Shown here piece after piece: positions 1 through 25,178 of a stretch of DNA of 64,000 nt. The stretch spans positions 1 through 64,000 of the forward strand of contig CALURC010000010.1 in NCBI GenBank assembly GCA_944323075.1. The letters run 5' to 3'. The notes under the pieces were generated by a model, which saw only the letters and a program-made list of their open reading frames with translations, had not been told where the DNA came from and ran no database searches. This DNA is from an uncultured Alistipes sp. (GTDB lineage: Bacteria > Bacteroidota > Bacteroidia > Bacteroidales > Rikenellaceae). The translations under genes and the position numbers were made by a program. Each line of letters starts with the position of its first letter. Position 1 is the first letter of the stretch.

Positions 1-1336
1 GCGTTCCGGCTGCATCCCGATTTTTCAACTCTCCAGCAAAATCTTCGAATCGGGGCAGAACATTTTTCCACTCCTTGAACATGCCATCAATCGCAATCTT
101 TTTCGAGCCCGAATACTTGGGCGGAGGAGCCATCCCCTTATATCGGCGCAGATGTCCGGCAAGTTGATAGAAATAATTGTCCGTATATCCTCCTTTTTGT
201 GGTTCAAGATCCCGATTGAACTCTTCATTGAATTCATCGACAAAATAAGATTCCCCCTCTTTCAACACCCGACCTTGAAAGGTGAATCCAGCTTCAACCA
301 ACCCTGCATTGGCATGCCATGCACCTGCTTTCCATTCGTTCCAACCCGTCACACACAAGATCAAAGGATGTAGACGATGTGCTTCTGTCCATTGTTCCTC
401 AAAATAGAGTCCTTCTCCTGTATGCTCACACTTCCAATATTTGTCATACACAGGTGTGGATTTCGAAGTCGAACTTTTTGACCCATAAATGTGATTACTC
501 CACAATGGTCCTCCCATACCTGGAGAAACAACCGCCTGCTCGATCTCTCCATCACGATAAGTAGGAGACATGGGCACCACATCGAAAAAGCGCCATTTGT
601 CTTTATTCTCCTCGTTCGCTTCAAAGGCAGCCCACATCCGACGCCATGTAAACGAATCGTTAATCTGCTGATCTGAAGGATGTTTTTCCGGCGACAACAC
701 CAAAGGTTTTCCATCGTAAATAAACCAACAGTCACGATAGGTCGTATCCGAATAGAATTCACTATAAAACTGCTCGATTTTAGGGATCGGTTCATGATTG
801 AAAAAAGGAACGATACGGGGAGGATTATATCCTCTCTGTTTCATATCCAGAATCAAGCTCAACAACACATGCAACTCCCGGTTATCGATTACGGCATTCG
901 TAAAATCGAGATACAGAAAATCGATCCCTATCAGACAAAACAGGTTCAAATGTTTCTGTAGGGCATATTCATCTATCGAACGGTAATATCCCAACTCAGG
1001 TTCAGCCCAATAATAGTCAGCGAACTGCCATTTCGTTCGAGTCGGATCTTTTTTCAGCGCTTCTGTTACATTATAATCCGTAGTACTTTCATTTCGCAAA
1101 TTACCGTGCCACAGCCAATAGAACAATCCGACATACCGATCGGCTTTCAAATCCCCGACCTCCTCGTATGTAGGCAACTCCCTGCCAAGTGCATCAGTCG
1201 CAACCAACTGATCACCAAGAGGCTGAATCAGTGGAGAGATTTTTTCTCTATCAATTCCCTTTTCGGGAGATTGCCCTGCTGCCGTACCAATCACAGACAA
1301 CAGGAGCAATCCCAATAAATTTATTCGTAAATTCAT
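1..1336 (-). CDS. Secreted GH71/GH99-like TIM-barrel protein, 3' end missing
   Basis: This minus-strand frame stays open for 445 codons from an ATG at 1336 to the window edge, so the C-terminus is missing. Residues 1-21 form a signal peptide (hydrophobic core LLGLLLLSVIG, then AAGQ), so the protein is exported. The segment ADRYVGLFYWLWHG (about 66-78) and the motif GWNEWKAG (about 331-338) resemble the barrel strands of GH71, GH99 and WbsX-type proteins, where a WNEW-like motif lines the active site. After about residue 411 a segment beginning KKIAIDGMFKEW resembles the start of a CBM9/DOMON-like sugar-binding domain. It lies 32 nt downstream of the rhamnosidase and is probably co-transcribed with it. 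Substrate is unknown and family membership is inferred from short motifs only. Confidence 0.7.
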   Translation of the reverse strand, partial: MNLRINLLGLLLLSVIGTAAGQSPEKGIDREKISPLIQPLGDQLVATDALGRELPTYEEVGDLKADRYVGLFYWLWHGNLRNESTTDYNVTEALKKDPTRTKWQFADYYWAEPELGYYRSIDEYALQKHLNLFCLIGIDFLYLDFTNAVIDNRELHVLLSLILDMKQRGYNPPRIVPFFNHEPIPKIEQFYSEFYSDTTYRDCWFIYDGKPLVLSPEKHPSDQQINDSFTWRRMWAAFEANEENKDKWRFFDVVPMSPTYRDGEIEQAVVSPGMGGPLWSNHIYGSKSSTSKSTPVYDKYWKCEHTGEGLYFEEQWTEAHRLHPLILCVTGWNEWKAGAWHANAGLVEAGFTFQGRVLKEGESYFVDEFNEEFNRDLEPQKGGYTDNYFYQLAGHLRRYKGMAPPPKYSGSKKIAIDGMFKEWKNVLPRFEDFAGELKNRDAAGT

Positions 1337-21207: not shown

Positions 21208-22503
21208 TTAACACCCGAAAGCCTTTTTCAGCTTATCGACCACATCGAGACGCTCCCAGCCGAAAAATTCGACCTCACGCATCACCTTCTGGTTCCCCTC
21301 GTAGCAAACCACCTCCTTTTTATAGGGGCGGTTACCGAAGTGTCCGTACGAAGCCGTAGCCTCGAAAATCGGATTCCGCAAGCCGAACTCCCGAACGATC
21401 GCCGCCGGACGCAGATCGAAAATCTGTCCGATCTTCTCCGCAATCGCTCCATCGGTCACCCCGTTGAGCTTCGAGGTTCCGTAGGTGTTCACATAAATAC
21501 TCAACGGTTGAGCAATTCCGATCGCATAGGAGAGCTGAACAAGCACCTCATCGGCAATTCCGGCTGCAACGATATTCTTGGCAATGTGACGTGCCGCATA
21601 GGCTGCACTACGGTCCACTTTCGAGCTGTCCTTACCCGAGAAGGCTCCTCCTCCGTGAGCACCGCGACCACCGTAGCTATCGACAATGATCTTCCGGCCG
21701 GTCAATCCCGTATCGCCGTGCGGGCCGCCGATAACGAATTTTCCCGTAGGATTGACGTGCAGGATATAGTCATCACCGATCAGATCGGCCAGACGGTCTC
21801 CGGCCCGTTCCAAACGTGCCTTGGTACGCGGGATCAAGATGGTCCGCACATCCTCGCGAATCCGGGCACACATCGCCTCTTCGGCTGCCTTTTCGCTTCC
21901 GGCCATGTCAGCCGTAATAAACTCATCGTGCTGCGTCGATACGACAATCGTATGTACACGCAACGGTTTACGGTCGTCGCCGTACTCGATCGTCACCTGA
22001 CTCTTCGCATCGGGACGCAGATAGGTCATCACCTTCCCCTCACGACGGATCGCAGCTAACTCCTTCAGGATAACTTGTGACAAAATAAGCGTCGCCGGCA
22101 TCAGCTCCTTGGTCTCCGAGCAGGCATAACCGAACATGATGCCCTGATCGCCGGCCCCCTGCTCCTCTTCGGTTGCCCGAACGACCCCCTGATTGATATC
22201 GGGCGACTGTTCGTGAATGGCCGAAAGCACTCCGCAGGAGTTCCCGTCGAAACGGTAATCGCTCCGGGTATATCCGATCCGGTTGATCACACGGCGGGCC
22301 ACATCCTGAACATCGACATACGCCTCAGAACGCACCTCTCCCGCAACGACAACCAACCCTGTCGTACACAACGTTTCACAAGCTACTTTGGAATAAGGAT
22401 CGTGACGAAGGAACTCGTCGAGAATCGCATCGGAAATCTGATCCGAAACCTTGTCGGGATGTCCCTCGGACACCGACTCGGAGGTAAATAAAAATCCCAT
22501 CAT
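21208..22503 (-). CDS. metK: S-adenosylmethionine synthase
   Basis: A 431-residue cytoplasmic enzyme that makes S-adenosylmethionine from ATP and methionine. [16 protein letters not shown] (ATP and metal site) is near the N-terminus. GQGIMFGYA is represented by [14 protein letters not shown], and the P-loop-like [19 protein letters not shown] is intact. Two ATG codons stand together at the start, and I use the first. The gene is alone between its own promoter and leader and a strong terminator. The leader carries a SAM-II-like aptamer, so feedback by the product is likely. Confidence 0.98.
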
Positions 22504-22562
22504 TAAAAGATTTTAAACATGAAACACTTTAAAACAATGGGAAAAACTCAGCTGTTGTTGAA

Positions 22563-22626
22563 GAAAAAAACAAGTACTATTTTAGCATTTTTTTTCGTGG
22601 TTGCAAGCGGCCAAATCTTTCCACAA
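22563..22626 (-). ncRNA. SAM-II-like riboswitch in the metK leader
   Basis: On the minus strand a 6-bp P1 stem (22621-22626 with 22595-22600, one G-U pair) encloses a loop containing GATTT, CCG and TTGCAA. It is followed by an A-rich joint and AAATGCTAAAA. These are the conserved blocks of the SAM-II (metA) aptamer, in the right order and spacing. The GC of TTGCAA can pair with the GC of TGCTAAA as in the SAM-II pseudoknot. I could not find the second short pseudoknot helix. The A-tract right after P1 can instead pair with a U-tract at 22564-22570, trapping the GCTAAAA strand in a loop. Placement, a few nt from the expected transcription start and ahead of metK, fits perfectly. Confidence 0.8.
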
Positions 22627-22640
22627 TCATTAAACGGCGG

Positions 22641-22671
22641 CAAAGGTAAACAACTTTTCGGGATTTTCAAA
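22641..22671 (-). promoter_or_regulatory. Consensus promoter for metK
   Basis: On the minus strand TTTG (22668-22671), a 19-nt spacer and TACCTTTG (22641-22648) match the Bacteroidota consensus without mismatch. Transcription would begin near 22633, giving a leader of about 130 nt. Confidence 0.88.
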
Positions 22672-22742: not shown

Positions 22743-25178
22743 TCAGAAAGGATAACCAACTGCAAAATTGAGTGTTGTATTCTGGAATCGGAAATTCTGG
22801 ACCCACCGCTGCCCGACAAGCTCTCCCGGATCGTATAATTTCACCCCCCAATCAACACGAAAAACAAAAAAATCGAAATCAAACCGAGCACCTAATCCCG
22901 TATTGAACCCAAGTTGTTCGAAGAAGTGATTGAAACGGAATCGGCTCTCTTCATTGTAATCATTTCCCGTGAACCAAATATTTCCCACATCGAAGAACAA
23001 CGCACCTTGCAGAATTCCCCATACGGGAAACCGTGTTTCGAAATTGGTTTCGAGCTTAAAGTTTCCCAACTGTGTAGGATAAGATGAGATCCAGCGATGT
23101 TCGTTTCCAGGTCCGAGCGTACGTGCCAGCCACCCCCGCATACTGTTGCTACCTCCGCAATAGAAGAGCCGTTCGAACGGTATAGAGTAGGAATTCCCGT
23201 AAGCGTATCCCCATCCCGTGTAGAACCGGAAAACAAAACTCGTCTTCGGAGCCAACACGAATTTTCGAGCCAGATTAAAATCGAATCGGAAATATTGTGC
23301 ATACCGGATTCCGAAGAGTTTATGATACCGGTCATCCCCTTCACCAACTACCTCCTTCCCGAAAAGACGCGACAGTCCATCAATCAAGTTTCCGTTCGTT
23401 TCGACATTCAACCGCATCGAAAGCGAATTTTTCTCCACGTTGATCTTTTGATTGTTAAAGATATAAGAGGCAGAAAGCCCGGCAATTACCTGTGACGTAT
23501 AACTGTTGTAGAGATAGGGATTTTCCAAATTGTTAAGAAACGACGTATCGATCTGCCGCAACTTGACAATGTTGATGTCGGCCGGACGCAAAACGAATGT
23601 ACTGTTCTTTCCATTGCCCCACGAATACCCCCACACGGCCGATGCCAATGCTCGATGGTAATAAGGACGACGTTGCACGTTATAGGAGACCTCTACCTTG
23701 GTTTGCGGGCTGAAAGTCCGGTTGTAACGGTCGACCCGGAACGGAGTGATGAACCTCGGGAATGAGAAAGCTCCGGAGACTCCAAACTCAAAGGAATTCC
23801 GTTTCTGCTTGGAGTGCATGAACTCATACCCGCCCCGCACCTTGAAGTCGAAAAGCTCAACACCACGGAACAGATTCCGGTTCTGATACCCGACGGTCGC
23901 CGTAATCCCGAAATAGTCCGCCGAAGTCGTTCCTTCCAGCTCCAACGAATACCCCTGAAGCAAATCTGGAATACAATAGATATTACAATCGAGATATTTT
24001 TCGGTTCCATACGAGAGCTCTTCCGTACCTGTAGAATCGGATGCAGATCCGATAAAGGTCAACGTGTTTTGCTGAGCGACCGAATCCGGACTCTCTGAAA
24101 AAAGAATGTTGGCACTCCGGAAATACCCCAATCGCATGATGTTATCATAGGTTCGGTTAACCTCGTCGGCATTATACAGATAGTTCGGATAGAGTGTTAT
24201 CGTCCGGCGTAAAATCTCCGAACGGACATTCTGACGTTTATGATAGATGATTTTTAAGCCATTATAATCGACCGTATCCAATCCTGACCAATAGAGCGAA
24301 TCGGTCGCAGCCTCCGTTGGATTGTAATCCGGGAAAACACATATATTCCGAATCCGATAAATACGGTTGTTATCCACGGTAGCTTCTCCCTCTTCGGTAT
24401 ACCCCGACATGTGCCTCTTTATAATCATCGTCACATCGATTGTCCGGTTTCCGACCGTCGAATCGGCTATATAACTGATGTTGTTGATCGAAAAATTGTA
24501 ATACCCCTTGCTCTTCATGAAATTGGTGATCCTCACCCGTTCGTCATCGAGCACATTGGCATCGAACAGATCTCCTGAATGCAGCAAACTCGAAACCGTA
24601 TCGCTGAAAATGATAGGCTGTAACGTCCGGTCACGAAACTCGTATTTGATCGTACCGATCCGATAGAGATCGCCGGGATGAACGGTATAATACACTCGGG
24701 CTTTACGCTTTGCCGTATCGACCCGAAACGAAGCCGACGCATCCAAAAAGCCTTTTCCATTCATATAGATCTGCATGGCTGACGCCGAACGTTCGGTCAA
24801 AGTAGAATCCAACAGCACCGGAGCTTTTCCTATCCGGCGTTTGAACCGATTCCATCCGGTATCTTTCGTCGTATCTGCCGTGTTGTAAAGCCACACGTAA
24901 AAATTGGTTCCAAAGAATCGTTTAGCCGGATGTTGCCGGATGAATTGTTCCAAATCGGCAGATTGAACCCGTTCGTGTTTTGCAAGATGATCTACCTTTT
25001 CTATGCGAATATCGTTTTTGACCAATAGATAACTCGACTTCGGAATATGCTTAGTCGCACTGCATGCCACCAACACAACGGTAAGGCACATCAAAAGAGA
25101 TCGATTCACCGCTCGAACGACACGTCGGACAGGTTCTCCGACTCTGTTTCCATCCTCTTTACTCTCTGTTAGCCGCAC
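22743..25178 (-). CDS. TamL-type BamA/TamA-family outer-membrane lipoprotein
   Basis: An 811-residue Omp85-superfamily protein. The N-terminus has a long basic region, then VVLVAC with lipobox Cys39. A lipidated N-terminus marks the Bacteroidota TamL branch. Repeated POTRA-like units follow (about 60-400), with motifs such as GFLDASASFRVD and KGYYNFS. A C-terminal 16-strand barrel is suggested by CGGSNSMRGWLARTLGPG, the superfamily (V/I)RG(F/Y)-like motif, and by the terminal phenylalanine (NFAVGYPF). It probably inserts or helps export outer-membrane proteins. The TamB partner is not here. A downstream ATG at codon 30 is an alternative start. Confidence 0.88.
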   Translation of the reverse strand: MRLTESKEDGNRVGEPVRRVVRAVNRSLLMCLTVVLVACSATKHIPKSSYLLVKNDIRIEKVDHLAKHERVQSADLEQFIRQHPAKRFFGTNFYVWLYNTADTTKDTGWNRFKRRIGKAPVLLDSTLTERSASAMQIYMNGKGFLDASASFRVDTAKRKARVYYTVHPGDLYRIGTIKYEFRDRTLQPIIFSDTVSSLLHSGDLFDANVLDDERVRITNFMKSKGYYNFSINNISYIADSTVGNRTIDVTMIIKRHMSGYTEEGEATVDNNRIYRIRNICVFPDYNPTEAATDSLYWSGLDTVDYNGLKIIYHKRQNVRSEILRRTITLYPNYLYNADEVNRTYDNIMRLGYFRSANILFSESPDSVAQQNTLTFIGSASDSTGTEELSYGTEKYLDCNIYCIPDLLQGYSLELEGTTSADYFGITATVGYQNRNLFRGVELFDFKVRGGYEFMHSKQKRNSFEFGVSGAFSFPRFITPFRVDRYNRTFSPQTKVEVSYNVQRRPYYHRALASAVWGYSWGNGKNSTFVLRPADINIVKLRQIDTSFLNNLENPYLYNSYTSQVIAGLSASYIFNNQKINVEKNSLSMRLNVETNGNLIDGLSRLFGKEVVGEGDDRYHKLFGIRYAQYFRFDFNLARKFVLAPKTSFVFRFYTGWGYAYGNSYSIPFERLFYCGGSNSMRGWLARTLGPGNEHRWISSYPTQLGNFKLETNFETRFPVWGILQGALFFDVGNIWFTGNDYNEESRFRFNHFFEQLGFNTGLGARFDFDFFVFRVDWGVKLYDPGELVGQRWVQNFRFQNTTLNFAVGYPF

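Follow-up and report, generated by a model that had tools for sequence, protein, structure and literature searches.

A short sequence on the minus strand of the 64-kb stretch of DNA analysed here (the window) was read by the first-pass annotation as a SAM-II-like riboswitch. Two questions follow: whether this sequence is a SAM-II aptamer, and how SAM binding might be passed on to metK, the gene downstream. Read from 22671 to 22495, the minus strand presents a promoter, a 59-nt aptamer, a leader and metK, in that order, with the parts listed here (counts refer to the 176 loci described below).

22668-22671, minus strand: TTTG, presumably a -33-like promoter box (from sequence)
22641-22648, minus strand: TACCTTTG (TAnnTTTG), -7-like promoter box (from sequence)
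22572-22630, minus strand: SAM-II aptamer, RF01726, full model 1-60 (cmscan, 66.7 bits)
22621-22626, minus strand: UUGUGG, 5' strand of P1 (sequence, cmscan, relatives)
22613-22617, minus strand: GAUUU, conserved loop (GATTT in 161/176 aptamers)
22601-22606, minus strand: UUGCAA, 5' strand of the core pseudoknot helix (172/176)
22595-22600, minus strand: CCACGA, 3' strand of P1 (sequence, cmscan, relatives)
22581-22587, minus strand: UGCUAAA, 3' strand of the core pseudoknot helix (GCTAAA in 176/176)
22577-22579, minus strand: UAG, weak P2a partner of CCG at 22608-22610 (0.0 kcal/mol; covaries in relatives)
21208-22503, minus strand: metK, S-adenosylmethionine synthetase (open reading frame; start at 22503 or, more likely, 22500)

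All of the sequence blocks that had been described on the minus strand are present, except that the gap between promoter box and P1, put at about 10 nt, measures 14 nt. The SAM-II assignment, for which a run of the Rfam model had been proposed as the check, was borne out. When the 64 kb were searched with 4227 Rfam families by cmscan, 22572-22630 (minus strand) matched RF01726 over model positions 1-60 of 60, with a score of 66.7 bits (gathering score 44, E 1.2e-10); this was the sole Rfam match above gathering score within the window. The alphaproteobacterial SAM-II model, RF00521 (SAM_alpha), was rejected at 19.9 bits, below its gathering score of 36. A single RF01726 match was found in the window's genome, and no SAM-I match was found elsewhere in that genome. 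The model match, the core, P1 and the neighbouring gene all identify the segment as a SAM-II riboswitch.

The two promoter boxes are 19 nt apart and form a Bacteroidota-type promoter ahead of the aptamer. TAnnTTTG, which has been given as the sigma-A consensus in a flavobacterium (PMC9723704), precedes the aptamer by no more than 60 nt at 155 of the 176 loci. On the other side, 68-71 nt separate the aptamer from metK, for which homologues suggest a start at the second ATG, at 22500. The metK genes of 277 of 295 genomes from the window's order aligned with that of the window, whose closest named relatives carry the labels Rikenellaceae, Alistipes and Tidjanibacter; the window's family is therefore probably Rikenellaceae. 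Upstream of the metK leader, 22743-25178 (minus strand) encodes an 811-aa protein that looks by eye like a BamA/TamA-like outer-membrane assembly protein.

The first-pass annotation named Alphaproteobacteria as the best-studied setting of SAM-II; in Bacteroidales the element is no surprise but a common arrangement of a catalogued RNA. RF01726 matches were present in 197 of the 295 sampled genomes of the order (195 above cut-off), in 84 of 101 genomes of the window's family and, within its genus, in 8 of the 9 genomes sampled, the window's own counted. Among named records, matches above cut-off were found at 18 of 20 metK loci in a first set and at 8 of 20 in a second, partly from outside Bacteroidota; these records include Flavobacterium, Sphingobacterium, Parapedobacter and Porphyromonas. 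Where an aptamer carries an insert after P1, its score comes close to the cut-off, so that some genomes without a hit may carry the switch. One such aptamer, in a Tidjanibacter record (L035, 1326-1400), scored 43.3 bits against the cut-off of 44, and one genus of the window's family (g2) holds five inserted-type matches of 74-89 nt with scores near the Rfam cut-off.

We inspected 181 loci: the window, 30 from a search of the order, 30 from a search of the family, and 120 retrieved by position. Most of them come from the higher-scoring end of the order and family match lists, which hold further matches. In 178 of the 181 metK is the next gene, and product feedback on metK, as first proposed, is for this reason the natural reading. 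The three exceptions (L167, L254 and L255) were left out of the pairing tests, as was L240, where the AUG stands at the aptamer end with no leader, giving 177 loci; one unparseable locus (L150) reduced the set to 176.

L167 (genome G083, contig C269) has its aptamer before a gene other than metK, which we take, from the start of its protein, to resemble methionine synthase MetH; a second copy in the same genome, L176, precedes metK. L254 (G213) and L255 (G386) are second SAM-II copies with altered core letters (45.2 and 46.3 bits), and no metK was found downstream of either. Behind L254 there is a short piece of sequence that looks like a broken metK start; the open reading frame after it, we assume, resembles UDP-glucose dehydrogenase. 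Both look like decayed copies. Two further records concern SAM-I. In a Cryomorphaceae record (L055), a SAM-I at 981-1076 (minus strand) and a SAM-II at 1201-1259 (plus strand) lie back to back upstream of metK; a survey of 2007 reported no species with both (PMC2258182). A record titled as an Alistipes senegalensis MAG (L090, 1330-1432) has a SAM-I before a metK 47% identical to the window's, and this contig may belong to another organism.

The first-pass annotation took its proposal to stand or fall with a significant model match and with conservation or covariation in related metK leaders. Beside the significant match, P1 and P2a covary and the core blocks are kept in those leaders, counts for the core blocks being partly by construction, since the loci were found with the model and TTGC was a condition of locus parsing. 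P1 in the window has six pairs, one of them U-G. Across the 176 loci its third pair from the loop is TA in 170, CG in 5 and TG in 1, and its fourth is GC in 170, AT in 5 and GT in 1. The loop GAUUU is presumably the SAM-contacting triplex strand. The pseudoknot helix that had been called not obvious is P2a, where CCG faces UAG with a C-A mismatch and a duplex energy of 0.0 kcal/mol. In relatives its letters follow one another: aptamers with UUG loops (n = 57) have tail CAA in 32, CAG in 13 and other letters in 12, and those with CUG loops (n = 59) have CAG in 23, CAA in 1 and other letters in 35. By duplex energy P2a gave no signal (32 of 70 families). Of the suggestion that the element might be a structural variant, the weak P2a is the part that holds; no other sign of a variant aptamer was seen. 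The weakness of P2a in the window's genus, together with the decayed-looking second copies in the family, could be taken to mean that the window copy has itself decayed and lost SAM binding. We regard this as very improbable, given a score of 66.7 bits with every core block intact, matches in all but one of the 9 sampled genomes of the genus (the window's included) and a position directly ahead of metK.

What looks different here is the expression platform downstream of the aptamer, which had no place in the first-pass annotation. Two pairings within the leader are central to it.

22540-22552, minus strand: GCUGAGUUUUUCC, antiaptamer strand (13 contiguous pairs with aptamer 22610-22622)
22495-22542, minus strand: start-codon hairpin, UCCCAUUG (22535-22542) with UGAUGGGA (22495-22502), enclosing the metK AUG (-12.3 kcal/mol)

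The antiaptamer strand GCUGAGUUUUUCC, read from 22552 to 22540, finds its complement in the aptamer sequence GGAAAGAUUUGGC (22622-22610). This duplex takes up the conserved loop and part of P1, and so cannot coexist with the folded aptamer. The same strand overlaps the partner of the start codon at 22535-22542, so SAM binding should free it to hide the start codon; as both pairings share 22540-22542, only one of them can form fully. We propose that when SAM is scarce the leader strand would pair with the 5' half of the aptamer and be kept off the start codon, leaving metK on. With SAM bound, P1 and the pseudoknot would hold the aptamer 5' half and the leader strand would be released, whereupon its UCCCAUUG end would pair with UGAUGGGA around the metK start codon and turn expression off. 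Such a translational off switch would require no Shine-Dalgarno sequence. We infer that the window copy binds SAM, that the switch runs in this direction, and that translation is the step controlled. Probably the SAM-II riboswitch gives metK product feedback through control of translation initiation.

Both pairings were first noticed by eye in 61 loci, and the set of 176 on which they were evaluated includes that discovery set. Loci within a family are related, so the permutation results given here are not probabilities. The aptamer's identity, its place before metK, and the two competing pairings with their conservation are all results of computation. The antiaptamer duplex as a whole has an energy of -16.4 kcal/mol in the window, and none of 60 shuffled leaders, all antiaptamer shuffles being dinucleotide-preserving, paired as well (z -3.4). 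Over the 176 loci the mean z against shuffled leaders was -1.71, with values below zero in 64 of 70 families and 43% of loci in the best 5%. In 58 of 70 families, pairing was better with the locus's own leader than with leaders drawn from the remaining families (p 5e-7; 55 of 70 in a resampled repeat); the median rank of the own leader was only 0.24, and the best 5% was reached by 24 of 176 loci (13.6%). Four control pairings, in contrast, did not beat shuffles: the reversed aptamer half (mean z -0.29, 40 of 70 families), the 3' part of the aptamer (0.02, 30 of 70), upstream DNA (0.02, 24 of 70) and coding DNA (-0.33, 34 of 70). The letters of the two strands also change together. Leader CAAUC occurs in 36 of 57 UUG-loop loci versus 14 of 59 CUG-loop loci (p 3e-5), and leader CAGYC in 26 of 59 CUG-loop loci versus 6 of 57 UUG-loop loci (p 6e-5).

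The start-codon hairpin of the window, at -12.3 kcal/mol, has a z of -3.05, and 2 of 200 shuffles were as good. Within the window's family (38 loci) the mean z is -2.44, and pairing of the AUG is 0.88 compared with 0.66 in shuffled sequences, being higher in 33 of 38. Outside the family (138 loci) the hairpin is weak, with a mean z of -0.91 and AUG pairing of 0.68 compared with 0.59 (higher in 86 of 138). Over all loci, AUG pairing exceeds that of shuffles in 46 of 70 families. Among the 35 distinct arm pairs of the family, cognate arms outfit re-paired ones, with none of 300 permutations as good, and this holds also without CCC/GGG. A UCCC in the leader is associated with AUGGG starts (80 of 104 versus 31 of 72), as it is when one locus is taken per family (25 of 38 versus 11 of 32, p 0.016). 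In two genomes of one genus (L256 and L257) the start is AUGGCA and the strand has CC in place of CCC. Complementarity of the first 9 coding bases to the leader was not general over all families (z -0.17). Pairing of the stretch from -8 to +14 with the leader was considered as a wider measure and set aside as weak (mean z -0.73, below zero in 44 of 70 families). Support for switching of the leader strand is strong in the window's family and weaker outside it.

The effect of the aptamer on the start codon was expressed as the cost of opening positions -10 to +12. In the window this comes to 11.6 kcal/mol for the occupied aptamer and to 5.7 kcal/mol once the antiaptamer has formed. Since blocking any strand tends to lower the opening cost, a shuffled-leader control was added, from which leaders longer than 140 nt were excluded (166 loci). 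In the family the change is 6.5 kcal/mol compared with 1.3 for shuffled leaders, and every one of the 34 loci exceeds the shuffled mean; outside the family it is 2.5 compared with 1.1 kcal/mol, with native above shuffled in 87 of 132. By family, native exceeds shuffled in 49 of 69 (p 1.5e-6). Under equilibrium folding the AUG of the window is paired whether the aptamer is free (0.97) or occupied (1.00), as it is in the family (0.84 free, 0.87 occupied), so that the switch is visible in the opening cost only. Equilibrium pairing of the AUG was accordingly dropped as a measure of switching: among 176 loci it goes up in 76 and down in 26, and it hardly moves in the window.

That the AUG changes little under equilibrium folding, and that the hairpin signal is weak outside the window's family, leave some room for a reading in which the aptamer senses SAM and the leader pairings reflect AU-rich or pyrimidine-rich composition and shared descent, control being exerted in another way, for example through mRNA stability. 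Against it, the native pairings beat both dinucleotide-preserving shuffles and non-cognate leaders; the four control pairings fare no better than shuffles, and the letters of loop and leader co-vary. We consider this reading improbable.

A different possibility is that the switch acts on transcription, SAM binding either permitting an intrinsic terminator or leaving a pyrimidine-rich strand to Rho. Most described SAM-II switches are thought to be transcriptional (PMC6061858, PMC2258182), and in the window AUUUUUAUUU follows the start hairpin, and the released strand, UUUUUCCC, is pyrimidine-rich. Canonical terminator-like hairpins, however, were found between the aptamer and position +30 of metK in 4 of 176 loci, where 5.2 were expected by chance, and there were none in the scanned stretch of the window; the start hairpin was left unscored by both terminator scans because loops were limited to at most 8 nt. 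The U-rich codons 3-5 of metK were considered as a terminator tract and rejected, as the early codons of other open reading frames in the window are similar. U-rich early codons are indeed unremarkable there: TTA accounts for 8 of 26 leucine codons at positions 2-7 of 47 window open reading frames and for 119 of 1609 later ones. At two loci, moreover, there is no room for a terminator. The metK AUG lies 4 nt (L040, 1494-1505) or 7 nt (L240, genome G139) after GCUAAA, at the aptamer end, so that only initiation could be blocked there, and these two may block it directly, without a leader platform. Termination thus seems unlikely, though less so than a mere effect of composition. Control of initiation is the reading we prefer, and its more general form, that Bacteroidota SAM-II elements use a Shine-Dalgarno-free translational platform in which one strand alternates between the aptamer 5' half and the metK start codon and SAM closes the AUG hairpin, appears on balance to be somewhat favoured.

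The platform is what would matter most here, as translational riboswitches are mostly explained by occlusion of a Shine-Dalgarno sequence, and classical sequences of this type are missing from Bacteroidetes mRNAs (PMC7366714). Competition between a start-codon hairpin and the aptamer for a single strand would be a concrete answer, testable by mutation, to how translational switching can work in Bacteroidetes, and if true it may represent a general riboswitch design for a phylum whose mRNAs have no Shine-Dalgarno sequence. In the literature searched, with supplements and most subscription papers lying outside it, we found no description of a start-codon platform for SAM-II. One paper lists Bacteroides data sets, and no Bacteroides result was found in the part of its text compared (PMC12121620).

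The aptamer and its phylum were already known, and the new part is probably the leader platform. A Bacteroides thetaiotaomicron example of SAM-II was reported in 2005 (Corbino et al. 2005, PMC1273637), and RF01726, the SAM-II long loops riboswitch, was listed in 2010 for "Bacteroidetes, marine" (Weinberg et al. 2010, PMC2864571). The window element belongs by curated model to this same family and comes from the same phylum; gene context and expression platform are absent from the text compared (PMC2864571). With the alphaproteobacterial metA motif, RF00521, the window element has P1, the pseudoknot and the core in common, but copies of that motif often come with putative intrinsic terminators (PMC1273637), which occur at the Bacteroidota loci studied here at a chance level (4/176). 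SAM-II terminators are most often found in alpha- and beta-Proteobacteria (PMC2258182); a terminator platform is common in Proteobacterial SAM-II and does not define the class. The SAM-II of metX has been described as a rare translational case among switches that are mostly transcriptional (PMC6061858). Translational metX SAM-II and SAM-V (PMC6061858, PMC10907184) turn translation off with a pseudoknot aptamer, as is proposed for the window. Those switches mask the Shine-Dalgarno sequence within the aptamer or next to it, a direct-occlusion design that L040 and L240 resemble; in the window, by contrast, the start codon would be hidden by a leader strand distinct from the aptamer, and the antiaptamer pairing would compete for that strand.
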